A stretch of 64,000 nucleotides of DNA. It comes from Candidatus Rubrimentiphilum sp. GTDB lineage: Bacteria > Vulcanimicrobiota > Vulcanimicrobiia > Vulcanimicrobiales > Vulcanimicrobiaceae. Both the position numbers and the translations under genes were made by a program. Below, in pieces: positions 19,219 through 63,947 of the stretch; within the stretch, counting starts at the first letter, position 1, and every line of letters begins with the position of its first letter. The stretch covers positions 529,434 through 593,433 of the forward strand of contig DASTDE010000004.1 of assembly GCA_035710515.1 (NCBI GenBank). Direction: 5' to 3'. Below the pieces are notes generated by a model. That model made no database searches, was not told the origin of the DNA, and saw only the letters and a program-made list of their open reading frames with translations.

Positions 19219-19305
19219 GCCCAGATGGCGGAATTGGTAGACGCGCTGGTTTCAGGTATCAGTGGCCGCAAGGCCGTGGGGGTTCGAGTCCCTTTCTGGG
19301 CACCA
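19219..19305 (+). tRNA. tRNA-Leu (anticodon CAG)
   Basis: An 87-base class II tRNA. The acceptor arm GCCCAGA pairs with TCTGGGC (19295-19301), with genome-encoded CCA at 19303-19305. The anticodon stem CTGGT/ATCAG encloses loop TTCAGGT, with CAG as anticodon. The long variable arm (GGCCGCAAGGCC) and T arm GGTTCGAGTCC are present. Its 3' end is the left attachment site of the mobile element that starts here, and the tRNA is left intact. Confidence 0.95.
19283..19302 (+). repeat. attL: 20-bp direct repeat at the 3' end of tRNA-Leu
   Basis: The 20 bases TTCGAGTCCCTTTCTGGGCA, spanning the T loop and acceptor strand of tRNA-Leu, recur exactly at 46545-46564 in the same orientation. The integrase gene begins inside at 19364. 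This is the expected product of tyrosine-recombinase integration into a tRNA 3' end. Confidence 0.9.
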
Positions 19306-30839: not shown

Positions 30840-30854
30840 AAGCTTAGGCTATAC

Positions 30855-32666: not shown

Positions 32667-32731
32667 CCTTTTTAGAAGGCTTGGCGTGCCCGAGCGCACC
32701 CCCAAGTGCCCCAATTATCCGCTCGTGAATA

Positions 32732-33561: not shown

Positions 33562-33597
33562 AGAGGCCCGCATGCAAGTGCGGGCCTCTTTCTTTTC
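33562..33597 (+). terminator. Strong rho-independent terminator
   Basis: Eleven-base perfect arms AGAGGCCCGCA (33562-33572) and TGCGGGCCTCT (33579-33589) with a six-base loop, followed by a T-rich TTCTTTTC run. It ends transcription of the 33434 gene before the convergent coupling-protein gene. The stem shares its AGAGGCCCGC core with the terminator at 33281. Confidence 0.9.
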
Positions 33598-38414: not shown

Positions 38415-38864
38415 ATGAGATCCGAGGTTAGCGAGAAGGCTCACGCGCAAGACGCCGTTCGCGATGCATTGCGCGGGCAGAAGCCTCGCGCAGATTCGCC
38501 TTCCGAGGGCCGTGCGATGATCGCCGTTGCGCCGGCAGTGCGCGATAATCTCCGCGCGCTCGCTGATAGCGCCGGCACTTCCATCGGCGATTATATCGCT
38601 GCTACGATCGCGCAACACGGTATCTCCGAGCCTACACGCCTCTTCGATACGGCCGCGCTGCGGCAAGCCAAACCACTGACCGATCTTTCCTACCGGCTCG
38701 CTCGACTGATAGAAGCGCTACAAAGTTCGGACATCGGAACGGCCCTGCAATTCGCTTCGGAAGCGCGCTCGATCGTCGCAGACGCTCTCGCACCGCTGGC
38801 ACGATCGCACCGCACCGAGATCGCTCAACAGGACGGCCGGCTTGCCGGGGGTTGGAAGGGTTAA
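38415..38864 (+). CDS. MobC-like relaxosome accessory protein
   Basis: A 149-residue protein. AMIAVAPAVRDNLRALADSAGTSIGDYIAATIAQHG (residues about 34-69) resembles a ribbon-helix-helix DNA-binding segment, and RLARLIEALQSSDIGTALQFASEARSIVADALAPL forms a helical hairpin as in MobC/BMC-type mobilisation proteins. AAGGA at 38402-38406 region precedes the ATG. It stands directly before the relaxase gene, with which it is surely cotranscribed. Confidence 0.68.
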   Translation: MRSEVSEKAHAQDAVRDALRGQKPRADSPSEGRAMIAVAPAVRDNLRALADSAGTSIGDYIAATIAQHGISEPTRLFDTAALRQAKPLTDLSYRLARLIEALQSSDIGTALQFASEARSIVADALAPLARSHRTEIAQQDGRLAGGWKG

Positions 38865-38866
38865 GC

Positions 38867-41800
38867 GTGATCGCAAAGTTGTGCGCACCGCCTAAAGGCG
38901 GCTCGACTGCGAGCGGACTTGTCGAGTACTTGACGGGTTATAGCGTCGCGGAGAAAGGCGCGTCTCGCCAGGAGGTCACCGACGCACTTGAAGCCGTGAT
39001 CGCCGAAGCCGAAGCTCGGCCGGATCTGGGAGCCGGCGAAATCTGGAGACCGGTTGCCGGCGCGGGCTCGCGGCCGTCTTCGATCCTCGTGCGCAACTGC
39101 AATTCGTTCGCGACGTCCGCGCTCGAAATGGACGGCGACGCCGCTTCGAATCTAGGCGTGAAGAACCCGGCGATGCATTGGGTCTTCTCATTCCAAACCG
39201 CTGAATCGGGCCGTCTGACCGACGAGCAGGTGCATCAGTACGTGGGCGAAGTGCTCGAGAAGATCGATCTTGGCCGTCATCGCAGCGTCGCAGCCGTGCA
39301 CCGAGACACGATCATTTTCGATCGCGATGAAGACGGTCGGATCAAACGCGATCAAGACGGCAACGCCATTGTCAAAGACGGCAATCTGCACGTCCATCTC
39401 GCTATCGGCAGCGTGAGTCCGGAGACCGGGCTCGCATACAACAAGACCGGTTTGTATCGGCGCGTGGCTTGGGCGGAACGCGAAGTCGAACGCGACCACG
39501 GTTTGCTCCACGATCGCGGTTTGGCCGTCGTCCGTGACATCGGCACGGAGATGGAGCGTGTCGATTGGGCGAGCAAGATCGGGCCTGATGGCACCTTTGC
39601 CACCTCCGAGATCGCGCAGTGGAGGCGCGAGAGGCAGCAGGAACGGCTTGCGCGCGAACAGCGCCGGAGCTTCGAGGCCTACCGCACGCGCGACCAAAGC
39701 TTTGAGCGGTACGCCAACGCGACTCTGGCGCCGAGACTCGGAACCGCCATGGATCTCTCTCGCGAGAGAGGACGTAACCCGTCGTGGAGCGAGCTTCACG
39801 CGATCTCCGCGCGCTACGGGGTTTCCCTAGAAACCGATGCTGACGGTCGCGTGATACTTCGAGATGTCGGCATTGCGCAGATGCGCCTGGAACATGGGCG
39901 CGAACGCAAGGAGCTGCGCGAGCGCCTGAAGTCCCAGACGGTTGACCGCGATGAGATCGATCGCCAAGTAGCGGAGCTTGCAGCCAAACACGAGGAGGCA
40001 GAGGGCAAAGAGCGAGAGCGTCTGCGCGAGCACGGAGAGACCGTAGAGCTTGATGCCGTGCTGGACGACGACCGAGCGGATATGCCGGCGTTCCAAGACG
40101 TCGAGCAGGCTGAAGCCGCGCTCATTTCCGCGATCGAGGCGAATCCGAAGTTGATCCTCGACGACTTGACCGCGCAAAGCTCGACGTTTTCCCGCGAGGA
40201 TCTGGATCGCGAACTGTGCAGGCATCTGTCGGATCCAGCCGAGATCGAGCGGTTGGGCGATCTGGTTATGCGTTCCGACAATATCCGGATGCTTTCGCCG
40301 GATGCGGCGTACGGATTGTATACCACGATTGAAATTCTCAAGTGTGAGGATCAGCTCGCAGCCGACGCTCGCACCTTGGCTCGTCGCGAATCGGGAATCA
40401 CGCGCAAAGAAATCGATCGCGCGATCAAAGACCTTGAAAACGAGCGCTCCGAACGCGGCAAAACTTTTCGCTTGAACGAAGAGCAGCGCGAAGCCCTGCA
40501 TAAGCTCGAAGCTGGATCGCTCGTCTCGATTGAAGGCCGGCCGGGCGTAGGCAAAACGACTGTCATGGCTGCTCTCAGGCATATCGGCGAGCAAACGGAT
40601 CGCGACGTCGTTGGGTTGAGCTTGAGTCAAGCTGCGGCGGAGCGCCTTGCGGTCGAAGCCGGCTTTGCAACTGTGAATACCTCGCGCGCGCGCATTCTCG
40701 AAGACTCCGGCACGGAGATCATTCCTCGCGGAGGGATCGTATGCGTGGACGAGGCTTCAATGATCGACAGCCGCACTAACGCGCGCATCCTTGCGCTCGC
40801 GAAAGAGCGCGGCGCTACGGTCATCGAGATCTACGACACCCGCCAGCTCCAACCGATTGACTACGGAGCCTCGGCGCGCATCATACGCGACGTCGCCAAA
40901 GAAGCCGGCTCGCATGCCGAGCTAAACCAAATCATGCGCCAAAAACGCGATTGGCACAGGGAAGCCGTCAATACATTGGCAGGCGCGATTCCAGAGCGCG
41001 ATGAGTCAAAGCGCTACGCTAAAGTGCGCGAATCGCTTGAAATTCTCGACGAGAACGGTGCGATCACGTGGGTTGCAGATCGCGACGAAGCAATCGAAAC
41101 CGCGATCACAAAGAGCAGGGTTCACAAGGCCTTCGGACACGACACAATCGTGGCGGCCAGCGACAGAGACAGCGTCCGGCACCTGAACGAAGAGGATCGC
41201 CGGCGTTCCGGCCTTGAGGGCAAGGGGCTCACCTACAACACGGACGGAGGCAAAAGAGAATTCGCTCCCGGCGACCGGTTAATGTTTCTCGAAAACAGCC
41301 TGGGTGAACGCGATCTGGGCGTGCTCAATGGAGATCGCGGAACAGTCGTCTCCGTCAAGCGGAATGAGATAACGGTAGACGTCGACGCGATCGACGGTCG
41401 CGAAAAGCGTACCATCGCGTTCTCACCGCAATCGTACAAGGCTTTCGACCACGGGAACGCTAGCACGCACCATAAGACGCAAGGGGCTTCCGTTGGGGCG
41501 GCCGTTGGACTTATCGATAGATCCGCGAGCGCGGAGATGGTCTTCATGGCTGCTAGCCGGTCGAAGCATGATCTCGACCTCATCGTTTCGCGTGAGTCGT
41601 TCGAGAATCTTGACGAGCTTGCTGAGCACGTGGCTTCCCGAATCTCGCTCAAGACAACATCGCGCAACTACGACGAGATCTTAGAAAAGACCGGTGGAAA
41701 GGAAACACTCAGAGTAATTAATCAGGAACAACAGCGGCAGGCCGAGCCGATGCGCCGCCTTTATGACGCGGAGGTTGTCGAGCCGACGCGCGCGCTGCGG

Positions 41801-42142
41801 GAAGAACGCGTCCGCGAAATCCGCGAAGCGTACGCGGGGAGAAAGCGTGAGATCGCGGAGGATAAGGAACTTCAGATGGCAGCGCGGCTCGAACAGGAAA
41901 AGAAAGCGCTGAAAGAGCTGCGCAGCGAGATCCGCCGCGCGTACACCGAAATTCAGCCGACGCTCTCTTTCGGCGAGTTTTTGGAAGAGCGAGAGCAGGC
42001 TCGCCAAGCAGCGCGAGCGATCGAGCAGCAACGCGAGGCCAAGCGCGTCCGCGAGCAAGCGCGCGCGCAACAGATCGATCGCAAGCAGCCCACGATCACA
42101 CACGAGATAGAGAAAGAACATGGATTCGAACTCAGCAGATAA
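38867..42142 (+). CDS. Relaxase fused to SF1 (RecD/TraA-like) helicase
   Basis: About 1091 residues. The GTG 38867 start gives IAKLCAPPKGGSTASGLVEYLTGY, similar in form to the N-terminus of RP4-TraI-type relaxases, where the nicking Tyr lies. The metal-binding His motif follows: VHRDTIIFDRD near 144 and NLHVHLAIGS near 172. A long helical linker leads to a RecD-like helicase: SIEGRPGVGKTT (Walker A, about 560), CVDEASMID (Walker B), IYDTRQLQPIDYG, and THHKTQGASVG. The enzyme nicks oriT and unwinds the transferred strand. A TTG 15 bases earlier is an alternative start. Confidence 0.9.
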   Translation: MIAKLCAPPKGGSTASGLVEYLTGYSVAEKGASRQEVTDALEAVIAEAEARPDLGAGEIWRPVAGAGSRPSSILVRNCNSFATSALEMDGDAASNLGVKNPAMHWVFSFQTAESGRLTDEQVHQYVGEVLEKIDLGRHRSVAAVHRDTIIFDRDEDGRIKRDQDGNAIVKDGNLHVHLAIGSVSPETGLAYNKTGLYRRVAWAEREVERDHGLLHDRGLAVVRDIGTEMERVDWASKIGPDGTFATSEIAQWRRERQQERLAREQRRSFEAYRTRDQSFERYANATLAPRLGTAMDLSRERGRNPSWSELHAISARYGVSLETDADGRVILRDVGIAQMRLEHGRERKELRERLKSQTVDRDEIDRQVAELAAKHEEAEGKERERLREHGETVELDAVLDDDRADMPAFQDVEQAEAALISAIEANPKLILDDLTAQSSTFSREDLDRELCRHLSDPAEIERLGDLVMRSDNIRMLSPDAAYGLYTTIEILKCEDQLAADARTLARRESGITRKEIDRAIKDLENERSERGKTFRLNEEQREALHKLEAGSLVSIEGRPGVGKTTVMAALRHIGEQTDRDVVGLSLSQAAAERLAVEAGFATVNTSRARILEDSGTEIIPRGGIVCVDEASMIDSRTNARILALAKERGATVIEIYDTRQLQPIDYGASARIIRDVAKEAGSHAELNQIMRQKRDWHREAVNTLAGAIPERDESKRYAKVRESLEILDENGAITWVADRDEAIETAITKSRVHKAFGHDTIVAASDRDSVRHLNEEDRRRSGLEGKGLTYNTDGGKREFAPGDRLMFLENSLGERDLGVLNGDRGTVVSVKRNEITVDVDAIDGREKRTIAFSPQSYKAFDHGNASTHHKTQGASVGAAVGLIDRSASAEMVFMAASRSKHDLDLIVSRESFENLDELAEHVASRISLKTTSRNYDEILEKTGGKETLRVINQEQQRQAEPMRRLYDAEVVEPTRALREERVREIREAYAGRKREIAEDKELQMAARLEQEKKALKELRSEIRRAYTEIQPTLSFGEFLEEREQARQAARAIEQQREAKRVREQARAQQIDRKQPTITHEIEKEHGFELSR

Positions 42143-47497: not shown

Positions 47498-47626
47498 AGA
47501 GGTTTAAGGCGCAGACGGCGGGTGGCGGGGCGACGCAGGCAGGGCGACCAGCTGTCGACTCGAACATATGTTCGCATTCGCTGCAATGAGGGGCTCACAA
47601 CGGGAGCAGACAGAACGACCACATGG

Positions 47627-48598
47627 ATGATGCCACAGGATGCGAGCGGGGATATCCTGGATCAGGGCGTGAGCTGGGCACGCGCGTCGAGTTACTTCGC
47701 GCTTCTTGAAATATTGCGCTCCCCAGACGCTGCAAATGAAGCCTGGGCGACAGCAGAGGTTCACGGCGGCATGGCAGCTTCTCGCGTTCACTCGATCGGC
47801 CGCATCGTCGGGCGGACTGACGTCGATGATAAAGCATTTATGCTCGCGCGAAAGCACGTGCTTGAGGGCTTTACGCAACTTCGGCATGACGACGTTATTC
47901 TAGAAAAAGGAACCGTCGGTTATCCCACGCGGCTGGCCGAAACGCCTGATGCGCCTCAGTTTCTCTTCGTGCGCCAACAAGCCAATGTGCTGGACCTTCC
48001 CTCCCTTTCCGTCGTGGGAACTAGGCAGGCGTCGCAGGATGGCCGCGACCGGGCGCGCCGCCTGGCCCACTTACTCGCGCGCCGTGGCATCGTTGTTTGC
48101 TCCGGCCTAGCGGCTGGAATTGATGAAGCGGCGCATTTGGGCTGCCTTGAAGCCGGCGGCATCACGATTGCTGTCCTAGGTACTCCCCTTACGCGCGTCT
48201 ATCCCAAAGAGCACGCAGCGCTGCAGGAGCGCATAGGCTTCGTTGGCGCGGTCGTCTCGCAATTTCATCCGAAATCAAAGACGCTACCTCTTTGTTTTCC
48301 ACTGCGCAATGCTACTATGAGCGGCCTTTCTCTCGGAACTGTTGTAATCGAAGCGTCGGAGACGAGCGGAGCCCTCGTACAGGCACGAAAAGCGCTTCAG
48401 CAAGGTCGTAAGTTATTTATTCCGAGAAGCGCACTAGATAGCGATCGACTTCGCTGGCCAAGGCAATACGTTAACCGAGGGGCCCACGTTTTCGCCACGA
48501 TAGATGAACTTGTGAGCGTCCTAGAAACAGAGAATCTAGTGCCGCAACGTGATCTTGTGCCGACTGCCGCTACGGCGGTTGGACTTCGTGCTTCTTGA
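47627..48598 (+). CDS. DprA/Smf-like nucleotide-binding protein
   Basis: About 323 residues from ATG 47627. SLSVVGTRQASQDGRDRARRLAHLLARRGIVVCSGLAAGIDEAAHLGCLEAGGITIAVLGTPLTRVYPKEHAAL (residues about 130-205) is the DprA Rossmann core with GXR and SGLAXGID-type motifs. TVVIEASETSGALVQARKALQQGRKLFIP completes it. DprA normally loads RecA on incoming single-stranded DNA. Here it is paired by overlap with a phosphoribosyltransferase-type protein, so a defence or signalling role is more likely than transformation. The start is not certain; no clear binding site is visible. Confidence 0.82.
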   Translation: MMPQDASGDILDQGVSWARASSYFALLEILRSPDAANEAWATAEVHGGMAASRVHSIGRIVGRTDVDDKAFMLARKHVLEGFTQLRHDDVILEKGTVGYPTRLAETPDAPQFLFVRQQANVLDLPSLSVVGTRQASQDGRDRARRLAHLLARRGIVVCSGLAAGIDEAAHLGCLEAGGITIAVLGTPLTRVYPKEHAALQERIGFVGAVVSQFHPKSKTLPLCFPLRNATMSGLSLGTVVIEASETSGALVQARKALQQGRKLFIPRSALDSDRLRWPRQYVNRGAHVFATIDELVSVLETENLVPQRDLVPTAATAVGLRAS

Positions 48599-49895
48599 GC
48601 TAAATCAACTCAAAGTCATTATTCTCGATCACCCTCCTAAGGCCGAGATCGAGGCACTAGCGCGTTTAGGCCAGGCCGCCAAGATGTGCGCGCTCGTTGA
48701 CACGGATGAGGTTGCCTGGTGGCACGATCGCCTGCCTAATGATTCCTTAGTGCTTGCATTCGACGACTCGCCCTTCACCGATACTGCTGGAAACGTTAAG
48801 GCCGCTCTCGAGGCTCTGAAAGCTCAGCCCCACGAATGCGTATATGTTTCATTTAACCCACTAACGATAGAAGAGGCCGTCGGCACTCGCGTTCCCACGA
48901 TGTTAGTAAGCGAAGTTACGGGTGAGATTCTGCCCGATCTGTTCCTCAACTCCGTACCTGAACTCGAGACTGCCATTACCGACATCGCTGCGTCGAAGCC
49001 TCATGGCTACATTATTGAGCAGTTCTCAATGCGCTTTGGTGGCGGAACAAGCCCGGCCAGTACGGGGTACGTTAATTATCAGCAGTACCTAAAAGGCCGC
49101 GACTATTTAGACGCCACCATCTGTAACGAAATCAAGGTTGTCGTAAATGGCAGGTATTTTCCCGAAACGGAATCTCGGCATGCAAAACACCAGCCTTCGC
49201 TACGCCTACTACATGCAAAGTATGGTGATCGGCGTGGGAAACCTCTAGCCTCCGCGTTCGGATACGCATTAAACCTTGTCGTTAAGGAAAATCCGGAAAT
49301 TGATCTGATCACGCGGGTTCCACCTAAGCCTTCCAAACCCGAAGATCACTTGGGTGTTTTCTTGAACGCCGCGGCTGAGATCGCCGACAAGAATCGTGGA
49401 AGTGATCTGCGGTCCCTTGTCAGACTTGATGCGGTCAAATGCGTAAAGGAATACGGACAACAACACAAGGCTGGCAACTACGCGAAGCGCATTGCGAATG
49501 TGCGAGGCGTTTTTGATGCAAATCGCGACATCGTTCGTGGCAAAACCGTCCTTCTTGTAGACGACATTCTAACGAGCGGCGCCACCATCGTTGAAATGAC
49601 GCGGATTCTGCACGAAGCGGGAGCCACGTCAATTATCGCCTGCCCCGTTGCAATTACTCAACGAGTGATCAACTACGATCCGGATTACGAACTTGCATGC
49701 CCACGTGCCGGGTGCACCGGAACCATGCGTATTCGTTTTGCCAAAAATACCGAAGGCACTTTTTGGGGATGCGATCAATGGCTTCCGGGTAACAGAGGTT
49801 GTAATGAAATGATGAGTTTCCAAGACGGCCTCGCTGCAGTAAATCGCTTGGCAACGACGGACGCCATTGTGACCGTTGGGGGTTACTCTTTTTGA
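48588..49895 (+). CDS. HAD-like, phosphoribosyltransferase and zinc-ribbon fusion protein
   Basis: About 435 residues from GTG 48588, overlapping the DprA-like gene by 11 bases. Residues 1-125 resemble a HAD-like Rossmann half (ECVYVSFNPLTIEEAVGTRVPTMLV). The PRPP-binding loop KTVLLVDDILTSGATIVEM (about residues 320-338) marks a type I phosphoribosyltransferase, preceded by ComF-like spacing. A topoisomerase-type zinc ribbon follows: CPRAGCTGTMRIRF, FWGCDQWLPGNRGCNEM. The pair recalls partner proteins of RecQ-like toxins in PsyrTA/RqlHI systems (from memory), but no RecQ helicase is adjacent. Confidence 0.82.
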   Translation: MLLELNQLKVIILDHPPKAEIEALARLGQAAKMCALVDTDEVAWWHDRLPNDSLVLAFDDSPFTDTAGNVKAALEALKAQPHECVYVSFNPLTIEEAVGTRVPTMLVSEVTGEILPDLFLNSVPELETAITDIAASKPHGYIIEQFSMRFGGGTSPASTGYVNYQQYLKGRDYLDATICNEIKVVVNGRYFPETESRHAKHQPSLRLLHAKYGDRRGKPLASAFGYALNLVVKENPEIDLITRVPPKPSKPEDHLGVFLNAAAEIADKNRGSDLRSLVRLDAVKCVKEYGQQHKAGNYAKRIANVRGVFDANRDIVRGKTVLLVDDILTSGATIVEMTRILHEAGATSIIACPVAITQRVINYDPDYELACPRAGCTGTMRIRFAKNTEGTFWGCDQWLPGNRGCNEMMSFQDGLAAVNRLATTDAIVTVGGYSF

Positions 49896-53747: not shown

Positions 53748-54188
53748 ATGCCTGAAACCTGGTTTAAAACCGCCCGGTCAGATGCGTTACGTGGCCGAAC
53801 TTCGAAGGACACGAGACCCGAGGTCGTGCTACGCTCCGCCTTGCATCGGATAGGGCTGCGCTTTCGTCTTCATCGGCGCATCGCGGATACCAGATTGTCC
53901 GTGGACATTGTACTTCCGCGATTCAGAATCGCCATTTTCTGCGACGGTTGTTACTGGCATCGACATAACTGCCGACCTGAACGGCGCCTTATACCTCGTG
54001 GTGTGAACGCCGGCGCTTGGGCGAAGAAGCTAGCCAGGGTTAAAGAGCGGGAACGGAGAGCAGCTAAATTTCTCGCCGCGCAAGGCTTTACCGTTATCCG
54101 TGTTTGGGAATGCGACGTCTTGCGCGATCCGGATAAAGCTGCGCGGCGGGTTAGGACCGCAGCCAAACGATCGCACGTGAAAAGTTGA
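53748..54188 (+). CDS. vsr: Very short patch repair endonuclease
   Basis: A 146-residue Vsr. TSKDTRPEVVLRSALHRIGLRFRLHRR leads into the catalytic core SVDIVLPRFRIAIFCDGCYWHRH (catalytic Asp; zinc ligands in CDGCYWHRH), then WAKKLARVKERERRAAKFLAAQGFTVIRVWECD. In the classic system Vsr nicks T:G mismatches left by deamination of Dcm-methylated cytosine. A Dcm-type gene lies four kilobases away across NurA and HerA. It converges with the NurA gene two bases after its stop. Confidence 0.92.
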   Translation: MPETWFKTARSDALRGRTSKDTRPEVVLRSALHRIGLRFRLHRRIADTRLSVDIVLPRFRIAIFCDGCYWHRHNCRPERRLIPRGVNAGAWAKKLARVKERERRAAKFLAAQGFTVIRVWECDVLRDPDKAARRVRTAAKRSHVKS

Positions 54189-54190
54189 CG

Positions 54191-56290
54191 TTAGGACTGG
54201 ATCTCTTGAGGCCCGCTACCGCTCAGGCGACGTCTCTCGCTCTCAAGAGCTTGGTGGAGAATCACGAACTCTTGCTTTGAGAAGGGACGAACGCGAATGC
54301 CTCGTGAGCGCTTGTCACTCACGTGTCGCCCTATTATGGTAGTCAAGTATTCGTCAAGACGAATAACCAACTCATGTGCCCAGATTTTTACGGTGTCGTG
54401 CGCGCGCGCCACAAGCTCGGGCAACACCTCGAGCGTGCTCTTGTCGCGAAACATGCTATGCTCCTCGGATACCTCGAACCCGCTCTGTTCTAGACCGCTC
54501 AGCACGCGCTTCAGATGAGATTGCGCTTGTGGATGCGGGTCCGAATCGCCATAGACGTCGGCGTGCAGAATGAACTCGACGCGGGGCAGAAACCGCTCGA
54601 CCTCCAGCCTGGGAATCGTAGCAATATAACAACTTGCGTACGCGACATTGCGCAGCATCTGGACATAGGGGTCAGCCGGCCCGCGGAATGAGTCCCAGAA
54701 CACCGCGCGGCCGAAAGCGCCCTCATATTCTGCGGCATTCGTTTCGAGCTTTCGGAGCTTCTCGATCAATTCAATCGGGGGTTCGTTCACGCTATACCGC
54801 TTCGCAAAATTTGTCGTCGCGTGAAATGGGCGAATCACCAAAGCGGTCCGACTCCAGGGCTGGCCCTGTGTCCGGCAAGCTGTAAGCAGTCTGGTCAGGA
54901 GCATTTGGTCCGCTACACTATTGAGCGCCCGCATCGGCCAAGCTTCAACCGGTCCCGCGTTTTTTAGCGCTGCCTGCTGAGCGACGTACCAGTTGATGAC
55001 TGGTCCGAATACGCGTAGCTGCGCGGCCTTAACAATGCCGGCCACCGTCTGCTCGTCGTCCCTACACTTTTTTGCAATTTCCCAATTCAGCTCGATCATG
55101 TCGCGCACAATTTTGCCCGCGGACGTATCGTTGCGATAATGGCTGAAATCGCGATCTTGTGGGACGACGGTTCCATCCCTCAAAACCACGTCCGCCGGCG
55201 GCATCTCAACGGAACCGGGATTCGTGTACCAACGGCTCAAGACGCGAAGAGTCGTCCGAGTTTCAAGGACGTCCATGCCGTTCCACAGAGCGTGCATGTA
55301 TTCGGCATCACTTAAATCCGGAAAAAAAATCTTTGCCATGACGGTGTATCTGTTTTCGCGCTGCTGCATATCTTCGGGCTTTTCAGGAAGGCGCGCGAAG
55401 GCGGGGTGTTCTTCGCCTTTCGGGAACCGCACGCGACGGTTCATCTGGCCGATAGCAGTATTGACCGTGATCATCGGCGCGTGGCCAACGTAGAAGTCGC
55501 TGTCCTCTCCCAAAAACGACATCACGCCGGTTCGGCTAGAACCGTCGACGGCGCCCAACAACATTCGTTCTTGGTGCTCGGCAATCGCCGTAGTGACGAA
55601 CGGCCCATCTTCTATGCGCCACGCCAATTCGGTCCGAAGTTGTTGTTCGTTGTGGCGAACCGGAACGGATGCGGGATTTTTCCTACGTTCTTGTACAGCC
55701 TGCTCAAATTGTGGCGGCAACGTGACCGCTTCGGTCGAAAGGCCGAGTCCAAACCGTACCAATCCGTGGAGAAGCAAGACGGCGTTCCGCCCTTCCTCAG
55801 CATTTCGAATCAAGTCTTTCTGATCTGCGCCATTGTCGATCGCGTCAACTTGAGATTCAATGAGCGCTGCTAGATCGTCACAGTAGCTTATGATCGCCCG
55901 AGCGAACAGATCGCGCGCGTTTTCATTCGCGAGCTTGGATCTTAAAAAAGCCCACCATTCTTCCGGAACGTGCTGAATCTGACGCATCGATTCTCGCCAG
56001 ACCGGAATCGTGAGCAAAGGGTACTCGTCGTTGACCATACTGGCGAGATCCTCTTCCTCCAGCCACTGGCCATCGACATTCTGACCGATCTTGTATCTAA
56101 TCGGGTGCACGGTCGAATCCGCCACAAGAACGCCGCGATGGACCAGACGTCTCGCAAGGTTTTGATACGCCTCTTTGGTAACTCGATCGCCGCTTGCAAC
56201 GGCCTGTTCAAAGGCGTCAGGCGCAGTCGTTCCATTTGGCGACGCCGCAAGCCGCACGAAGAGCTCCTCGCGTTCGCGCGTGCTAAGCAT
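54191..56290 (-). CDS. NurA-like nuclease domain protein
   Basis: A 699-residue protein, larger than archaeal NurA (about 340-400). Residues 1-95 look like a winged-helix extension (LFVRLAASPNGTTAPDAFEQAV, YQNLARRLVHRGVLVADST). The NurA-type motif LLGAVDGSSRTGVMSF (about residues 245-260) offers the DGS metal site; RVEFILHADVYGDSDPHPQAQ (about 575-595) fits the C-terminal conserved strand. The link is also supported by coupling to HerA, whose stop overlaps this start by eight bases. HerA-NurA complexes resect DNA ends; here a defensive nuclease is likely. Confidence 0.72.
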   Translation of the reverse strand: MLSTREREELFVRLAASPNGTTAPDAFEQAVASGDRVTKEAYQNLARRLVHRGVLVADSTVHPIRYKIGQNVDGQWLEEEDLASMVNDEYPLLTIPVWRESMRQIQHVPEEWWAFLRSKLANENARDLFARAIISYCDDLAALIESQVDAIDNGADQKDLIRNAEEGRNAVLLLHGLVRFGLGLSTEAVTLPPQFEQAVQERRKNPASVPVRHNEQQLRTELAWRIEDGPFVTTAIAEHQERMLLGAVDGSSRTGVMSFLGEDSDFYVGHAPMITVNTAIGQMNRRVRFPKGEEHPAFARLPEKPEDMQQRENRYTVMAKIFFPDLSDAEYMHALWNGMDVLETRTTLRVLSRWYTNPGSVEMPPADVVLRDGTVVPQDRDFSHYRNDTSAGKIVRDMIELNWEIAKKCRDDEQTVAGIVKAAQLRVFGPVINWYVAQQAALKNAGPVEAWPMRALNSVADQMLLTRLLTACRTQGQPWSRTALVIRPFHATTNFAKRYSVNEPPIELIEKLRKLETNAAEYEGAFGRAVFWDSFRGPADPYVQMLRNVAYASCYIATIPRLEVERFLPRVEFILHADVYGDSDPHPQAQSHLKRVLSGLEQSGFEVSEEHSMFRDKSTLEVLPELVARAHDTVKIWAHELVIRLDEYLTTIIGRHVSDKRSRGIRVRPFSKQEFVILHQALESERRRLSGSGPQEIQS

Positions 56291-57932
56291 CGGAGCGTTC
56301 CCGGTGCAATGAAGTCGTTAAGTCCAACTTCTTACGGCCAGAAAATACTTTAGGCGTCCCTCCACCGACCGGCGTTTCGCGTTTGCGCACCGCTAAAAGA
56401 AACCCGTGCCGAATGAGCTCGCTCGAGCCCGATACCGCGCACACACCGCGCGGTAACTTCGGCAATTGCCCAATAAGCCGCTCATCCAAATCGGCGGTAA
56501 CTCCTTGGATTGCGCGCAGCTGGTCCTTCTCCAAGGCGAAGATGAATCGCGTCTGCAGCCGTTTGAGAACACTCGGATTGATGTCGCCTGGCGACTGGCT
56601 TACGAGCACAAGACCGGTGCGAACGTGACGACCCATGCGCGCCAGTTCGAACATTACTTGACTGCTGACAACGTGCTCGTCGTTCGGAGCAACCTGGTGA
56701 GCCTCGTCAACAATCAGAAGCGTGAACCAGCCGGCGGCCTCCGGATCCGTGCCAGCGGGTTTGCGTGCCATTTCCCGCCCCTTGCGTTGGAGTTCACGCG
56801 CCGCCGCGGCCGCAATCAAGCGCGTTTGGCGCAGGCTCAAGAAGCGACAATCAAGCACGACGAGTCGGTGTTTGATAAGCTCCTCGATAAAATCGAAGCT
56901 ACCACCGATTATCGGATCTTGTTCAAGTGCGCGCACACGGTTTACGGCGATCCCTAAGCTAGGCGCCTTTACGTCTTGAATCTTCGCAAGCTCGATCATC
57001 TTTTGTTGAAGGTCGTCGAACGTGAAATGACCGCCGTGGCGTTCGGTACGCAAACGCTCGTGAGCAAGCTCGATTAGTTCAGCGTATACGGTGCCGTCCT
57101 GAACGTTGGGAGCGATTTGAATCAATTCCGATGACGTTATCAAACCTAAGGAGAGGCCGAATGCAGCCGGATCGGGCAGGCCAATCACCCGGCCGCCCAG
57201 CGCGCGTGCCGCCTCGATCATCTCTCCATTAATGTCGAGCACAAGGGTCGCGATGCCCCACCGCAATGCCTCTTCCATCACGACGCCCGATTGATATGAC
57301 TTGCCTTTTCCAGGTTGTCCAAAAATACCAACGTGCATCTGGAGCAGTTCAGGTTTCAAGTTGACTGGTACGGCGGGAGCGCCGTAGACGTGACCGAGAG
57401 CCAATCCGCTCTCCGCCGACGGTTCCGATCCGATGGTGCGCGCGATCATCTCGTCGGGTAGGAGCACTATCGGATCACCGGCGCGTACCAGAAGTTCAGG
57501 CGAACCACGTTCAGCTTTCACTTCGCCGGTGACCGGGTCTATATCGAACTCTTCAATCGTTGCCGACTCGAGCAACCGAAAGATGCGCGTCGAGATCCCT
57601 TCCTTGGCGTAGTTGGCGCCGAGGCCGAGCCGATCGCGCGCGACGGCAAGCTGAGGTTCCTCGTTAGGGTTGACCTCTCGGCAATTGTTCACTTGCACCA
57701 CGGTGAGCACCGGGGTTTGCCTCGCGCCGTGCCACACGCCGATGAATTGCCCGGGTTTGACCTCGTGGCCATGGTTGAGAAGACCGGCAGCGTCGTTGAA
57801 ATCGGGCGTCCCTTCCCAATGAACCACACGCCCGATAACCTCAAAGCCACTCGGAAGCGGGAGGCCCGCCGGCTGCCGGCTCTCGTGGACCAGTTGCGGC
57901 GTAAGGGCTTGTCGTTCAGGCGTCTCCTGCAT
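56283..57932 (-). CDS. herA: HerA-type DNA translocase (FtsK/HerA superfamily)
   Basis: A 549-residue ATPase. An N-terminal HAS-barrel-like region (FEVIGRVVHWEGTP...GQFIGVW) precedes the Walker A GIFGQPGKGKSYQSG (about residues 208-222) and LVLDINGEM. Walker B is LLIVDEAHQVAP, and the sensor region is LVSQSPGDINPSVLKRLQTRFIFAL. The start is supported by AAGGAGG (complement of 57940-57946) eight bases away. HerA forms hexameric pumps that feed DNA to NurA. It heads the leftward herA-nurA operon under a strong palindrome. Confidence 0.92.
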   Translation of the reverse strand: MQETPERQALTPQLVHESRQPAGLPLPSGFEVIGRVVHWEGTPDFNDAAGLLNHGHEVKPGQFIGVWHGARQTPVLTVVQVNNCREVNPNEEPQLAVARDRLGLGANYAKEGISTRIFRLLESATIEEFDIDPVTGEVKAERGSPELLVRAGDPIVLLPDEMIARTIGSEPSAESGLALGHVYGAPAVPVNLKPELLQMHVGIFGQPGKGKSYQSGVVMEEALRWGIATLVLDINGEMIEAARALGGRVIGLPDPAAFGLSLGLITSSELIQIAPNVQDGTVYAELIELAHERLRTERHGGHFTFDDLQQKMIELAKIQDVKAPSLGIAVNRVRALEQDPIIGGSFDFIEELIKHRLVVLDCRFLSLRQTRLIAAAAARELQRKGREMARKPAGTDPEAAGWFTLLIVDEAHQVAPNDEHVVSSQVMFELARMGRHVRTGLVLVSQSPGDINPSVLKRLQTRFIFALEKDQLRAIQGVTADLDERLIGQLPKLPRGVCAVSGSSELIRHGFLLAVRKRETPVGGGTPKVFSGRKKLDLTTSLHRERSDA

Positions 57933-57946
57933 AATTAGGCCTCCTT

Positions 57947-57971
57947 ATAACAGATAACCGTTATTTGTTAT
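57947..57971. promoter_or_regulatory. 25-bp palindromic operator upstream of herA
   Basis: ATAACAGATAAC (57947-57958), one central C, and GTTATTTGTTAT (57960-57971): 11 of 12 arm positions pair. It touches the herA ribosome-binding site, so it likely covers the start of transcription. Candidate binders: the winged-helix protein at 59571 or the multi-winged-helix protein at 60877. Confidence 0.7.
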
Positions 57972-58114
57972 TCCAACCATGGCTCCCTTCTCCTCTTAAC
58001 CTAACCGTCGACCACCTGCGTACCCGGCGAGGTGCAGCGACGGCTACGAGCGCAGGCGCCGGCAAGATTTCCAAGAGTTTTTGTCCCCGTCTTGAACAGA
58101 AGGACGAACGCGCC

Positions 58115-58143
58115 GCACGTCCCGTCACTGACGTGGGACGTGC
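58115..58143. promoter_or_regulatory. Hairpin GCACGTCCC/GGGACGTGC upstream of dcm
   Basis: Nine-base perfect arms around an 11-base loop, followed by GCCTTTTGCG. It lies just upstream of the dcm -10 box. It could be an operator or a terminator insulating dcm from upstream reading. Confidence 0.6.
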
Positions 58144-58161
58144 GCCTTTTGCGAAATTTTG

Positions 58162-58167
58162 TATAAT
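58162..58167 (+). promoter_or_regulatory. -10 box TATAAT of dcm
   Basis: A perfect TATAAT 64 bases upstream of the dcm start, in an AT-rich patch after the hairpin. No consensus -35 lies 17 bases before it; that place is taken by the hairpin's right arm, suggesting activator or repressor control. Confidence 0.6.
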
Positions 58168-58231
58168 TGACGACCTCGAGGACCACCAGCGTTCCGTCCT
58201 TCGGCGCCGACTGTTCGCAGGAGTGAACGCC

Positions 58232-59590
58232 GTGAATCGAACCCGCACCGCCCACCGACCATACACTGTGGTCGATTTATTTTGTGGCTGCGGCGGTTTA
58301 ACGTACGGCCTTCAATCGACTGGCCGATTTCAAACGGTCTTGAGCGTTGACTCATCCGAAGACGCCCTGCGGACGCTGGTCCACAACCACAGCGTAAACG
58401 GCCGGTGCCCCAAGATCATCGCCGCGGATCTCGGGTCGTTCGGTGCGGCAGCCATTCGATCGGAGCTTCGGAGGTTAGGAATACTTACAGGGGAACTCGA
58501 TTGTCTAGTTGGCGGGCCCCCGTGCGAAGGCTTCAGTCAAAATCACGGAAAGGCGATCGCGGGTCGCGACGCACATGACTTTCTTGCTTCGGACACGTAC
58601 GCAACCCGCCAATGGTACCGCGCTCGGGGAGCGTCAGCTACGCGAGTTAAGCGAACCCGCCGCTCGCAACTTCATGACGCACGCAATCATCTATTTCGGA
58701 TAATGCTCGACGCAGCCGAACTTACGAAACCCAAGATTGTGGTGATTGAGAACGTTCGTGAGTTCCTGACGTACAAAGACGGCGAAATCAAAGACGAGAT
58801 CTGCATCTTTCTAGAGGCTATTGGTTACCGCGTCGAAGTCGCGGTGCTGAACGCGGCTGACTACGGGGTTCCACAATTGCGCAAGCGAGCGTTTATCGTC
58901 GCACTTCGTAGTGATATCGCAGCAACTTTCTCCGGATCCGCGTTTCCAAAACGCACTCATAAAGAACGACAGAACGGATCCGCCGACCGCGATGGTGTGT
59001 ACGTAACAGTGCGCGAAGCGCTAATGGGTCTACCAGTGGCGACGCTGCACGACGGCAATGTGAAACCCGATGTACCTAGGAGGATTACGGCGCCTACGCC
59101 CTTTCAACGTTATATAGCTGGGGGCAGCGGAACAGTCTATCCCTCTCAACACGTCACTCGGCCTATCAGTCTCAAGGTCCTCAATCGCATTAAAGCCATG
59201 AAGCCTGGCATGAAAATCCGAGACCTGCCCGCGAAATTAAGACCTAGGAAGTTTTACGCGAATGCTTACGCGCGATTGCAGTGGGGCAAGCCCGCAAATA
59301 CAATCACAAAGAGCTTTAACAATTTAGGATCGGGCAAATTCTGTCACCCGTCCCGAGACCGAGGAATAACAGTGCGGGAAGCGGCTCGCCTGCAGTCGTT
59401 TCCGGACACGTTTGAGTTTGTGGGCTCGGTCCGTGCAATTACGGCAATGATCGGTGGTGCCGTACCTCCGTTACTGGCGCGCGCTTTAGGTCTGCATTTC
59501 GCCGATATTCTCGACTGTGCGACAAAGCCACGGAAGCGTTCAGCAAGGCAAGACAATAACCGAGCGCATAATGGTAGACGCGGTGGTTAA
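58232..59590 (+). CDS. dcm: DNA (cytosine-5)-methyltransferase
   Basis: A 452-residue C5 methyltransferase from GTG 58232, with AGGAG at 58219-58223. Motif I VVDLFCGCGGLTYGL, motif IV VGGPPCEGFSQ (catalytic Cys), motif VI VVIENVREFL, motif VIII YGVPQLRKRAFIVAL, and motif X IGGAVPPLLARALG are all present in order, so the enzyme should be active. The target-recognition region lies at about residues 280-380. It is transcribed away from herA-nurA and overlaps the wHTH gene by 20 bases. Confidence 0.94.
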   Translation: MNRTRTAHRPYTVVDLFCGCGGLTYGLQSTGRFQTVLSVDSSEDALRTLVHNHSVNGRCPKIIAADLGSFGAAAIRSELRRLGILTGELDCLVGGPPCEGFSQNHGKAIAGRDAHDFLASDTYATRQWYRARGASATRVKRTRRSQLHDARNHLFRIMLDAAELTKPKIVVIENVREFLTYKDGEIKDEICIFLEAIGYRVEVAVLNAADYGVPQLRKRAFIVALRSDIAATFSGSAFPKRTHKERQNGSADRDGVYVTVREALMGLPVATLHDGNVKPDVPRRITAPTPFQRYIAGGSGTVYPSQHVTRPISLKVLNRIKAMKPGMKIRDLPAKLRPRKFYANAYARLQWGKPANTITKSFNNLGSGKFCHPSRDRGITVREAARLQSFPDTFEFVGSVRAITAMIGGAVPPLLARALGLHFADILDCATKPRKRSARQDNNRAHNGRRGG

Positions 59591-59843
59591 AGCAGAACAA
59601 GGCCTCGACCGTTTTCGGAGCGTCTTAAACGCAAAGGAATCGGAAATTGTTAGCAAACTTTTGGCGGCAGGCGGCGAGATTGTGCGCCGAGAGGAACTTC
59701 TTCTTGTTCTCGCGGGCCGCGCACCGCGAACCCTTGATACGTACATCAAGCAGATACGAGCAAAAATGCGCGGCGTCGGCTTGAGCGATCGTATGCTGAC
59801 GACCCATGCCGGCACTGGCTACAGTTTTCATTACAAGCCATGA
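59571..59843 (+). CDS. Stand-alone OmpR-type winged-helix protein
   Basis: A 90-residue protein starting VDAVVKAEQGLDRFRSVL. LNAKESEIVSKLLAAGGEIVRREELLLVLAGRAPRTLDTYIKQIRAKMRGVGLSDRMLTTHAGTGYSFH has the layout of the Trans_reg_C DNA-binding domain (recognition helix TLDTYIKQIRAKM, wing GTGYSF). No receiver domain is present. It is co-translated with dcm (20-base overlap) and is therefore a likely controller of the dcm/herA intergenic region. Confidence 0.8.
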   Translation: MVDAVVKAEQGLDRFRSVLNAKESEIVSKLLAAGGEIVRREELLLVLAGRAPRTLDTYIKQIRAKMRGVGLSDRMLTTHAGTGYSFHYKP

Positions 59844-59856
59844 GAGCGACCGCGCG

Positions 59857-60279
59857 ATGTCATTGGGTTTTGTCGGCGATGATTGTGTCGCGCAACGTCA
59901 GATGACTCCTCGCTCCAGCCATCAGCATCTCAATCAAGCCGTTGCGTTAAAGGCTTTTGATCGCGTTGCCGATGTGTGGCAGCTGTCGACTGAGGAGCGC
60001 TGTCAAATCCTCAAAACTGAATGCGGCACCTACGGAGATTGGACGTCCGGAAGCGGAAAACCGACGCTTTCGGATTCGCAGATCATCACAATCTCCAAGG
60101 TAATCAACATCTACGACGGGTTGCACAGGCTCTTCGGAGACAAATCATACGCCGACCGATGGGTTCGATGTGAGAATGCTGCGTTTGAGAAACAGCAGCC
60201 ATTAAATCTTCTCCTAACCCAAGATGCGGCTGGCCTCGATCGCGTATTCAAATTGGTCATGGACGCGTTAATAATATGA
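59857..60279 (+). CDS. MbcA/ParS/Xre-type antitoxin-like protein
   Basis: A 140-residue protein. NQAVALKAFDRVADVWQLSTEERCQIL, then SQIITISKVINIYDGLHRLFGD and WVRCENAAFEKQQPLNLLLTQDAAGLDRVFKLVMDAL match the MbcA/ParS toxin-binding domain (DUF2384). Such antitoxins normally accompany a RES-domain NAD-degrading toxin. None is seen next to it. A second member follows 15 bases later. Confidence 0.75.
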   Translation: MSLGFVGDDCVAQRQMTPRSSHQHLNQAVALKAFDRVADVWQLSTEERCQILKTECGTYGDWTSGSGKPTLSDSQIITISKVINIYDGLHRLFGDKSYADRWVRCENAAFEKQQPLNLLLTQDAAGLDRVFKLVMDALII

Positions 60280-60294
60280 AGCTCGAAAGATAGT

Positions 60295-60678
60295 ATGAGT
60301 TGGAAAATTCTCTTTTCCGAAATAAAACCGCCGGCCAATCCCCGAGCGCTATCTGACGTCAGGCCGCTACTTAAACGGCTTGACGACGCCTTCGGTACTC
60401 GGCCGCTCGCGCGCCTATTGGGCGTTGAATCCACCGTCATCGCTGACTGCGCGTCCGGACATCAGAAGATGAGTCCCGAGCTGACCCGACGAGTCATGGA
60501 CGTTCACGATGTGCTGACGCGCGCATTCCAAGTCTTTGCCCCGGAGACGGCAATGAGCTGGTTGGTCGGCAACGAGCCGTTCTTGGCCGGAAAACGCCCG
60601 ATTGATGTGCTGGCGCTGGGGAGCGTCGCGCCGGTTATCGAGGCGCTAGATAACCAGGAAGCCGGCGCTTACACGTAG
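60295..60678 (+). CDS. Second MbcA/ParS/Xre-type antitoxin-like protein
   Basis: A 127-residue protein. LDDAFGTRPLARLLGVESTVIADCASGHQKM looks like an HTH. ETAMSWLVGNEPFLAGKRPIDVLALGSVAPVIEALDN is a clear DUF2384 toxin-binding region. It differs enough from the first copy to suggest old divergence or separate partners. No RES toxin follows. Confidence 0.75.
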   Translation: MSWKILFSEIKPPANPRALSDVRPLLKRLDDAFGTRPLARLLGVESTVIADCASGHQKMSPELTRRVMDVHDVLTRAFQVFAPETAMSWLVGNEPFLAGKRPIDVLALGSVAPVIEALDNQEAGAYT

Positions 60679-60876: not shown

Positions 60877-62277
60877 ATGGGTCCGGGAGTTGCCAGAAAA
60901 CGCAGAAATTTTCCGCCGCTCTTTGGTGCGTATCAAATGACGGAATTGCTCGTGGCGATCCATCGATTAGGACCGGTTCGCGCACCCATTCTGCGCAAGT
61001 ACTTCGCTTGGAGCAGTCGTGGGCGTCTTGGAAAGATGAACCGATCACATTTGATTGCGTCCGCGGACTCCAAAACGCGGGATTGTCGAACTGCCGTGAT
61101 TGGGATCAACCCGAACCTGCCGGTTTACGATCAGTTCGCGAAGCTCGTAGACGCTCTGGCAAGGCGATACCAGCTGCGCAATGTTCCGAAAGAGATCCGG
61201 CCGTCTGAAATCGCAGCATTTTACGCGGGCGATCACGAGCCTGTGGACGTGGAGGCGATCTTCGGCACTTCTTGCCGAACGCTAACGCTTGTAGCGCTGC
61301 ACGCGCTGGGCGGAAAGGAGACGGCTAGCAAATTGGGCCGCTCGGTTCTCGGTCACTTTTCGAGCCAAGTGAAGAACGCAGTGAGTGGAATGGCTGAGGA
61401 AGGGACCCTTGCAAGGGAGGGCTCCTTAGTCGGATTCAACGAGCGCCTTGATTGGCTGCCGGAGCTTAGAGAGCTTCTTGACGCCCTTTCAGGCCGAATG
61501 CCTAAGGTTGTAGGGTTCGCGCATCATATGAAAGCGGTCCGACAGACCGGCCACAGCGGAACGGCGCACTCGGACGGCCAGCGCTTTAGATTTCTTGGCA
61601 GTCGCGTCAATCAAGCGATTCTGGCCTATCTCGCAGCGCATGGTCCAAGCCGAATCACAGAAGTTTGCGCGGCCGCCGCATCTTGTGCGACAAGAACCGC
61701 AGTCGATCCGCTGCTACGATCGGGGGTAGTGGTTCAGGTTTTTCAACAGAATACTCGCGAAACAATCATTTCGCTCAATGCAGCTCATCCTGTCTACCGT
61801 GAATTGCGGGCTCTTCTTCGAAGCAAAAGCGTTCTTGAAGACGCGCTTCCATTCTCAGTTAACTGTCCACTGTATTTTGGTGATGACCATAGCGAAGAAC
61901 GAGCGAATTTCGAACCTTATACATTGTTTGGCGTGGCTGCGAAAACTGCGAGCACTAACGTATTAGCGATATTGGCGCATGCCGTGCACGGCGAAATCGA
62001 TGGTGCTTCACTGTCCCGTATCCTGAATGAGCACGATCGGGGAAAAATGTCCAAGGCGCTTGCGCGGTTGGAGACCCTTGGTGTGGTCGCAACGCGCAAA
62101 TGGAAGGGGATGCTCATGTACCGCTTGGACGAAACCTGGCCGGCATATTCTGAGATTCGCGATTTGTTGCTTGCAATAGGTCGAGCATGGCCGGAATATC
62201 ATGACGCCGCCATGAGTGAACCCCACACCTACCCGGCGAGGCGTCGCTCGCTTGAGCAATGCAGAGTCTCTAGGTGA
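60877..62277 (+). CDS. Protein of four winged-helix-like repeats
   Basis: A 466-residue protein with four related segments, about residues 22-94, 134-204, 244-315 and 362-435. Each begins with a Leu/Ala helix (TELLVAIHRLG, TLTLVALHALG, NQAILAYLAAHG, NVLAILAHAVHG) and ends with a PXYXEL-type helix (LPVYDQFAKLVDAL, WLPELRELLDAL, HPVYRELRALL, WPAYSEIRDLLLAI). Between lie HTH-like helices and a wing. The last repeat resembles ArsR/MarR folds. It probably binds DNA cooperatively and may control this block. No family name is known to me. Confidence 0.65.
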   Translation: MGPGVARKRRNFPPLFGAYQMTELLVAIHRLGPVRAPILRKYFAWSSRGRLGKMNRSHLIASADSKTRDCRTAVIGINPNLPVYDQFAKLVDALARRYQLRNVPKEIRPSEIAAFYAGDHEPVDVEAIFGTSCRTLTLVALHALGGKETASKLGRSVLGHFSSQVKNAVSGMAEEGTLAREGSLVGFNERLDWLPELRELLDALSGRMPKVVGFAHHMKAVRQTGHSGTAHSDGQRFRFLGSRVNQAILAYLAAHGPSRITEVCAAAASCATRTAVDPLLRSGVVVQVFQQNTRETIISLNAAHPVYRELRALLRSKSVLEDALPFSVNCPLYFGDDHSEERANFEPYTLFGVAAKTASTNVLAILAHAVHGEIDGASLSRILNEHDRGKMSKALARLETLGVVATRKWKGMLMYRLDETWPAYSEIRDLLLAIGRAWPEYHDAAMSEPHTYPARRRSLEQCRVSR

Positions 62278-62327
62278 GCGTAACCGCGGGAAAGTAAGAG
62301 TGTTTAAGTGGCACGTCACGGAGGCTT

Positions 62328-63947
62328 ATGTACGAAATAACTCCTGTGGTCTGCAATATCGGCGAAGCCGAATTAAACCGGCTCGTTTCGCAAGCTGACC
62401 CGCTTCAGCTTTCGGAGCGCTGTTGCTTCCTCAATGCGGCGCTCAGTGAAGACCTCATGACGCGCTCACCGGTCGAGGTCCAGCCCCATTTTATTGATCT
62501 CGTCGGCAAAGATCCGAACCGCGACGAAGTCGTAGCAGAGTTAGTCCAGCGACGTACTGGCGTCGTTGCTGAACCGACGGCGCTGGCTACGATGGCGGCG
62601 TTTACCTTGACGTGCGCTACGGGGACATCGCATGACGTGCCCTTCCTGAAGATACTCATGGCCTTGAACTTTGAGACGCTCCGAGAGCCGGGTACCGAGA
62701 AAATTCGGTTTGATGCGGATAGCATGTCGTCGGCAATTGCGGCCTCGGCAACGCTCGGGACGGAGCGCTACCTAAATGTTCGCTGGCGTTTTAGAGAATT
62801 CATTATATGGTCGCGCAGCGAGGAGGCACGGCGCCACCATGCCTACGTCAATATTGACGAAGAGCTCATGCAAGCCTTCGGCACGACCTATGAGGATCTC
62901 ATGGCTGGCCTAACGGCGATCGACACCTTGACTGATTTTACCCTAATCCGTGAGCGCGGCCGGGCCTGGGTGTCGGCCGCTGAGATCTTGCGCGATGACC
63001 GACTCGGCATAATTCGCCGCCTCCTTTCACATATGTCGATTAGCAGACATAATTTGGCAGACATCGTACGCGCAACACAGTTACACTACTTACGCGGAGT
63101 AATGCACGCTCTATTTCTACGGTCGCCAGTGGTCGAATTCGAGAATGAGCGATATCTCGTTCCCGCACCGCGTCTGCTTGACAACGCCATGGCCCTTGGC
63201 TGGGTCTACGCGCTTGCGGATGCGCGCGCCGCATTGAATAAGAAGGCCAGCGCACAGTTCTGGATATTTTTTGGTGCGTTCTTCGAGCGCTACATCGTAG
63301 GAATCCTCGAGCGAATCGGACGGGCGATGGGTATGCGTGTGTTTCCGGAGCAGGATCTTGGGCAATTCCGGACGTCAGACGCGATTTTGCAAAGCGATAA
63401 TTCGATCTATTTCTTTGAGGTCGTTTCAAGTCGCCTCAGTGCAAACGTCTTACGCGATCCATCGGATGACGCCGAGTTAAACCGGGAGTTCGAGCAGAAA
63501 GTCTTTGGGAAGGTCGATCAACTCGCGGAGAACATCCGTCGGTTCTACGCAGGTGAGTTCGCTCAGTTTGGTTTGAACCCGGATAAGAGTATCGCGGTGT
63601 ATCCCGTCCTGGTGCAGTACCGATCCTTTTTGCGAACCGACGCCTTTCAACGTACTATGGAAAAGCGATTTCAAGAACGTTTAGGGATTCAGGCTCCAAA
63701 CGTTCGAGTCGTCGAGATTCTGGATTCGGAAATCCTTGAGTCGATGGAAGAGCATCTCGCCGCTGACAGGCCGCTTGGTGGTCTAATCGACGAAAAACTG
63801 GGCGACGCGGCGACCAGGTCGTCTCTGTTCAAGAATTTCATGAGCCTCCGCCATCCCGAATTGCCGCTGCGTCTTCCGCCCCAGATTGCACAGTGGGACA
63901 GAGACTGGCAAGGCGAGATCCTCGCCACTGTGGGAAGCTGGAGGTAG
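62328..63947 (+). CDS. Hypothetical protein, possible PD-(D/E)XK-type nuclease
   Basis: A 539-residue protein; GGAGG (62319-62323 region) precedes ATG 62328. Residues about 315-370 (FFGAFFERYIVGILERIG, EQDLGQFRTSDAILQ, IYFFEVVSSRL) have the helix-strand-Asp-strand-Glu pattern of restriction-endonuclease-fold domains, though the usual Lys after Glu is not in place. The first 300 residues are helical and of unknown type. It is the last gene in the window and lies 50 bases after the winged-helix-repeat gene. Confidence 0.55.
   Translation: MYEITPVVCNIGEAELNRLVSQADPLQLSERCCFLNAALSEDLMTRSPVEVQPHFIDLVGKDPNRDEVVAELVQRRTGVVAEPTALATMAAFTLTCATGTSHDVPFLKILMALNFETLREPGTEKIRFDADSMSSAIAASATLGTERYLNVRWRFREFIIWSRSEEARRHHAYVNIDEELMQAFGTTYEDLMAGLTAIDTLTDFTLIRERGRAWVSAAEILRDDRLGIIRRLLSHMSISRHNLADIVRATQLHYLRGVMHALFLRSPVVEFENERYLVPAPRLLDNAMALGWVYALADARAALNKKASAQFWIFFGAFFERYIVGILERIGRAMGMRVFPEQDLGQFRTSDAILQSDNSIYFFEVVSSRLSANVLRDPSDDAELNREFEQKVFGKVDQLAENIRRFYAGEFAQFGLNPDKSIAVYPVLVQYRSFLRTDAFQRTMEKRFQERLGIQAPNVRVVEILDSEILESMEEHLAADRPLGGLIDEKLGDAATRSSLFKNFMSLRHPELPLRLPPQIAQWDRDWQGEILATVGSWR

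Follow-up and report, generated by a model that had tools for sequence, protein, structure and literature searches.

Do a HerA-family motor, an unusually long NurA-like nuclease and a cytosine methyltransferase encoded side by side in a Candidatus Rubrimentiphilum genome constitute one restriction-type system, or are they neighbors by accident? The window, that is, the whole stretch of 64,000 nucleotides that was analyzed, carries at 53748-54188 (+ strand) a vsr gene for a very-short-patch T:G mismatch endonuclease (Pfam Vsr, 2.1e-20; TIGR00632 at cut-off). Two genes on the - strand follow: one for the long NurA-like nuclease of 699 aa (54191-56290), which has relatives in four other loci and matches the NurA profile better than shuffles do, and herA (56283-57932), for a HerA-family hexameric DNA translocase of 549 aa (PF01935, 1.3e-15; Walker A and B intact). 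On the + strand come dcm (58232-59590), for a C5-cytosine DNA methyltransferase (PF00145, 5.7e-51; catalytic motifs in the alignment), and a gene for a stand-alone OmpR/PhoB-type winged-helix regulator of 90 aa (59571-59843; PF00486, Trans_reg_C, 1.7e-10). The vsr and nurA-like genes are convergent with a gap of 2 bp, the nurA-like gene shares 8 bp with herA, and dcm is divergent from herA across a spacer of about 300 bp. The likeliest start of dcm is the GTG at 58232 behind AGGAG. Its last 20 bp, up to 59590, are shared with the winged-helix gene, whose ATG is at 59571. The G+C content of the block is 54-58%, compared with 61% in the first 27 kb of the window.

This arrangement of the five genes is the one given in an earlier note on this DNA, which had also reported intact Walker motifs in HerA and catalytic motifs in the methyltransferase; both are present. 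The Walker A motif GxxGxGKS of HerA (G205-S212) and the pair D409/E410 are invariant in the alignment of its relatives, and these residues together with the PF01935 central domain place the window protein in the HerA family. A PF09378 HAS barrel was found in the Phycicoccus relative of HerA. The window Dcm showed the motifs FCGCGG, PPC, ENV and QxRxR in the alignment, and was assigned to the C5-cytosine methyltransferases on PF00145 and the catalytic PC and ENV. Motif X usually reads GNAVPP in these enzymes, but GGAVPP in the window protein. Also, a palindrome, ATAACAGATAAC-C-GTTATTTGTTAT, lies at 57947-57971, 15 nt upstream of the herA start, with 11 of 12 arm pairs matching. Its four-half-site pattern occurred a single time in the window and never in 100 shuffles, and the palindrome is likely an operator.

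The 699-aa protein gave no match in Pfam, PADLOC, NCBIfam or PHROGs, and neither it nor its relatives could be recognized as NurA by a Pfam (PF09376) or PDB match, while the M. jannaschii plasmid NurA, used as positive control, matched Pfam NurA at 1e-47. Motif analysis was conducted on a five-row alignment of the window protein and its four relatives. Residues D249 and S251 (D[G/S]S motif), R371-D372-G373-T374, A630-H631 and K635 were invariant in all five, and the NurA motif order DGS, DGT, AHxxxK (D249, D372, H631, K635) was kept in every member. Archaeal NurAs (the M. jannaschii plasmid protein and those of T. kodakarensis and P. furiosus) present DGS, DGTL and AHxxxK in the same order. 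In T. kodakarensis NurA the alanine mutant of D49 is inactive (PMC12977600), and D249, the first motif Asp of the window protein, corresponds to D49. Against the NurA profile, hhalign scored 32.6, whereas none of 100 column shuffles exceeded 22.1 and the HerA and Dcm controls gave 18.9 and 12.8; this alignment covers only 86 columns around AHxxxK, with a probability of 9-12%. Two AlphaFold2 models of the nuclease part, examined for the RNase H-like fold of NurA, had mean pLDDT values of 43 and 38, a low confidence. Because the aligned stretch is short, the hhalign probability low and the models unusable, we call the protein NurA-like and withhold the name NurA itself, although its conserved motifs and the profile score above shuffles make that identity plausible.

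Solved archaeal NurAs measure 443-471 aa and the annotated M. jannaschii plasmid NurA 412 aa. The earlier note was therefore right to call the protein unusually long (about 1.6 times normal), and also to place an extension at its N-terminus, which amounts to about 200 residues since the first catalytic Asp lies at residue 249 rather than at about 50. The protein divides into a probable winged helix (residues ~1-68), a helical region (~79-227) and a NurA-like C-terminal half. The winged helix was modelled over residues 1-68 with block pLDDT mostly of 71-86, and the PDB fold neighbors of this region were winged-helix proteins, none of them significant by E-value. No PD-(D/E)XK or DUF2357 match was obtained for the protein in Pfam. 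Since this nuclease family escapes the family and defence libraries now in use, it would be missed by defence surveys.

Do these genes keep company in other genomes? No relative of the window protein turned up when the NurA-like sequence alone was searched against the phylum, plasmids, phages, viral contigs and genome contigs. Genome contigs were scanned with a degenerate DNA pattern of the HerA subfamily motif GR[HKQN]xRxG...QxP, of which dcm was no part, and the pattern matched at least 120 loci, mostly haloarchaeal, so that relatives are under-counted. Among the 120 matches listed, three were full-length HerA relatives with 36-38% identity, from the actinomycetes Phycicoccus sp. CSK15P-2 (L133) and Nakamurella aerolata (L151) and from a Saprospiraceae MAG (L167), and each of the three has a long nurA relative and a C5-methyltransferase gene beside herA. 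A fifth copy came from a profile scan of viral contigs with the herA alignment: a 36.8-kb IMG/VR contig (L199) with terminase and portal genes, where herA and a long nurA have vsr and four C5-methyltransferase genes nearby. Every full-length HerA relative found thus adjoins a long nurA relative and a C5-methyltransferase gene, and the conserved methyltransferase-nuclease linkage by which a restriction-modification system is recognized is seen in all five loci, window included. The earlier note had proposed to look for precisely this co-occurrence, now seen in distant bacteria and a phage contig, and had reasoned that pairs always occurring in a core genome context and without dcm would speak against a system; the opposite was observed, as the five pairs stand outside the core genome and each has its methyltransferase.

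The NurA-like products of the five loci range between 699 and 775 aa. Three gene orders were seen (dcm-herA-nurA; herA-nurA convergent with dcm; herA-nurA divergent from dcm), and the linkage has therefore been kept through rearrangement. The 8-bp overlap of herA and nurA is common to the window, Phycicoccus and Nakamurella. The Phycicoccus and Nakamurella copies are 88-92% identical, so that the five loci amount to about four independent lineages. Vsr, which repairs deaminated 5-methylcytosine, had been counted in the earlier note as part of the system; it belongs to three of the five loci (window, Phycicoccus and phage contig) and is thus an optional part, not a fixed one.

Two other searches were set aside. 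A HerA alignment that included distant SIR2-HerA and similar proteins was dropped, the resulting patterns being too general, and the 31 matches that an initial motif pattern gave among viral contigs were all judged to be chance. Archaeal NurA was also sought by regex next to haloarchaeal herA, which yielded none that was usable. In Phycicoccus and Nakamurella, an ORF of about 100 aa (L133 1493-1795 and L151 4105-4416; 72-73% identical, without Pfam match) is divergent from dcm and possibly regulates the cassette. On the phage contig (L199 5507-16343, around the HerA-NurA pair), one of the four C5-methyltransferases is encoded by an ORF that is extended far at its N-terminus, and an ORF of 280 aa, whose NgoMIV-like match is weak and below threshold, lies beside one of them.

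The methyltransferases bear on what is, in our view, the main rival explanation, a methylation-independent system. HerA and the long NurA would then form a self-sufficient anti-invader system of the "HerA/FtsK capture" kind, catching foreign DNA by its ends or by its replication or packaging state, and the C5-methyltransferase and Vsr would be a separate partner that, e.g., shields DNA from other restriction enzymes. In favor of this reading, the five loci have methyltransferases that fall into more than one clade on a poorly resolved tree (3 changes), and the phage contig, with four of them including the one beside the weakly NgoMIV-like ORF, is in line with it too. Moreover, described capture systems that include winged-helix and nuclease components mostly lack a methylase of their own (PMC10853773; PMC12839542). 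On the other hand, a C5-methyltransferase gene adjoins the pair in 5 of 5 loci and in three gene orders, and among the matches listed dcm lay within a stretch of about 8 kb in 3 of 3 true relatives vs. 0 of 117 other herA-motif loci. We therefore regard this reading as unlikely, while keeping it in view. As the methyltransferases are not one clade, the methyltransferase partner appears exchangeable, and the tree gives no sign of co-evolution with a single target or of a common target motif. The cassette resembles the capture systems and DndFGH in having a HerA-family pump, here with a presumed role in defence against invaders, together with winged-helix and nuclease parts, but the described ones use a REase, PglZ or an exonuclease (PMC10853773; PMC12839542). 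The term "NurA" occurs in neither of these two papers, and no Orc/Cdc6 or DndH-type partner with REase was present in the examined cassette genes of the five loci. The working principle may nevertheless be common to both.

A second line of evidence comes from dcm-vsr units elsewhere. The best plasmid match of the window Dcm by BLAST was that of Caballeronia pSBC2-5 (35%), also its nearest neighbor on the poorly resolved tree. The order there is vsr, a small ORF, dcm, an AAA ATPase gene and a DUF2357+PDDEXK_7 gene, which makes up a LlaJI/McrBC-like restriction set. G084, a genome of the window's phylum, has at L034 9388-12553 a dcm, an unassigned ORF of 262 aa, a vsr and a winged-helix gene of OmpR type. 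Since the nearest plasmid dcm sits with a LlaJI/McrBC-like NTPase-nuclease pair, HerA-NurA probably fills the restriction slot in the window, and, as dcm-vsr units occur with different effectors, the pair fits an effector slot. The G084 winged-helix protein is 38% identical to that of the window, which suggests a recurrent stand-alone regulator of dcm-vsr loci. For the winged-helix gene the view of the earlier note, which made it part of the system, was not supported: it was rejected as a core component, being beside herA-nurA in no relative and having its counterpart at an ordinary dcm-vsr locus. In the window it is a local addition that is not conserved with the pair.

LlaJI itself consists of two 5mC methyltransferases, a McrB-like R1 and a McrC-like R2 (PMC1459862). 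The window likewise links a C5-methyltransferase to a two-gene effector of motor NTPase and nuclease, but its motor is HerA and not a McrB-type AAA protein, and its nuclease is NurA-like and not PD-(D/E)XK. The McrBC/LlaJI-like slot of the nearest dcm cassette could be taken to mean that HerA-NurA attacks foreign-modified DNA as McrBC does, with the linked Dcm marking a different, harmless motif. The resemblance of LlaJI to McrBC points the same way, although LlaJI restricts unmethylated DNA (PMC1459862). Such a Type IV-like action seems very improbable to us, because a stable C5-methyltransferase linkage would make a 5mC-targeting nuclease self-destructive and because the nuclease contains no known modified-base-binding domain by Pfam.

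The distribution of the pair bears on whether it is a repair machine. Of 149 genomes searched in the phylum, just one, the window's own, encodes the NurA-like protein; it is absent from the 148 others, six genomes of the same genus among them, which is not the distribution of a core repair-linked pair. Profile searches recovered only the carriers already known in the Phycicoccus class (395 genomes) and family (35) and in the class of the Saprospiraceae MAG (345), and no carrier in the three classes to which a Bryobacterales MAG (260 genomes), Duganella (248) and Ancylobacter (260) belong. The other HerA-family gene of the genome stands alone at another locus, beside an apparent trigger factor gene and without a NurA-sized neighbor; same-genus genomes with a HerA match have one such match each. 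Integrases surround the Saprospiraceae copy. The herA/long-nurA pair is rare and accessory. By motif, both protein families are those of the archaeal and Deinococcus HerA-NurA, with the same HerA ATPase, NurA-type nuclease and NurA motif order (PMC9960219; PMC12977600), and the known pair resects broken DNA ends (PMC9960219), so that a repair machine of this type with accidental neighbors could be imagined. However, the window-type nurA is long, N-terminally extended, accessory and linked to C5-methyltransferase and vsr genes. The rarity of the pair in the phylum and in the six profile-sampled groups, the defence genes nearby, the phage-contig copy, the length of the nuclease and the constant linkage to dcm make end resection an improbable function.

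SIR2-HerA and HerA-DUF4297 are two-gene defence pairs of HerA and an effector. SIR2-HerA was among the best plasmid matches of the window HerA, but the effector differs, and the window protein is only 22-25% identical to SIR2-linked HerA. The ATP-dependent type II systems CglI and NgoAVII combine a DNA methyltransferase, a nuclease and a DEAD-family helicase (PMC5737866; PMC4267653). Their three-part design (methyltransferase, nuclease and ATP-driven translocating motor) recalls the cassette, although their motor and nuclease families are unrelated to those of the window. No described system with HerA-NurA and a C5-methyltransferase was found in the open-licence papers searched, an absence that is not proof; in the earlier note, too, this exact combination was not known as a characterized system. 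The set of motor, nuclease and methyltransferase is likely an undescribed kind of restriction (anti-invader) system.

From gene content, motifs and conserved linkage, which were observed directly, we consider it fairly probable that these genes make up a mobile restriction-modification-like cassette, driven by ATP, in which a HerA-NurA machine has been captured as effector. Methylation-dependence, complex formation and the anti-invader function of HerA-NurA are what we infer beyond this, as is the division of labor whereby Dcm would protect self and HerA-NurA would destroy unmarked DNA. Dcm would put 5-methylcytosine on host DNA, as its intact motifs and the linked Vsr suggest, and Vsr would repair 5mC deamination. 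The long NurA-like nuclease would be in one complex with HerA, which pumps dsDNA as a hexamer, since their genes overlap and HerA-NurA complexes are known; published ones translocate dsDNA into the nuclease and degrade it with ATP (PMC9960219; PMC12977600). Through its N-terminal part, which probably contains a winged helix, the nuclease would recognize or load on unmarked DNA, and HerA would pump the invading duplex into the nuclease, where both strands would be shredded. The palindrome before herA suggests that expression of the effector is controlled, and one candidate for the regulator is the linked winged-helix protein. Against this model speak the weak sequence match to NurA, methyltransferases that are not one clade, and a sample of five loci only. 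More tentatively, and at somewhat less than an even chance, the cassette could represent a new translocation-coupled class of restriction-modification, in which a captured end-resection machine reads or loads on the unmethylated invader through the winged-helix part of its enlarged NurA, with an exchangeable methyltransferase. If the cassette model is true, a repair motor-nuclease has been turned into an anti-invader weapon, coupled with the marking of DNA both in distant bacteria and on a phage contig. HerA-NurA would then be the third motor-nuclease pair able to fill the restriction slot beside a cytosine methyltransferase, after the McrB-McrC-like and helicase-nuclease pairs.

The surroundings of the cassette also deserve description. 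What is likely an integrated mobilizable element spans 19219-46564, with a tRNA-Leu (19219-19305) whose 3' end is repeated exactly (20 bp) at 46545 as a putative att repeat, and a tyrosine integrase gene (19364-20554). Its cargo includes a type III-like methylase and ResIII-like pair (28512-32714), a TraG/VirD4-like coupling protein (33596-35323) and a relaxase-helicase (38852-42142). The cassette is no part of this element, as it lies beyond the putative att repeat, which ends at 46.56 kb. Near the cassette, a DprA-like and phosphoribosyltransferase pair at 47522-49895 resembles ShosA/ShosT (PADLOC, 4e-66 and 1e-9). Directly 3' of the winged-helix gene, 59806-60678 holds two adjacent Xre/MbcA-type antitoxin-like ORFs, with which no obvious toxin was seen. 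Farther downstream, ORFs of 466 and 539 aa, both without Pfam match, lie at 60877-63947; the former weakly matches the PADLOC candidate PDC-M05A (6e-7), and the two are possibly another defence pair.
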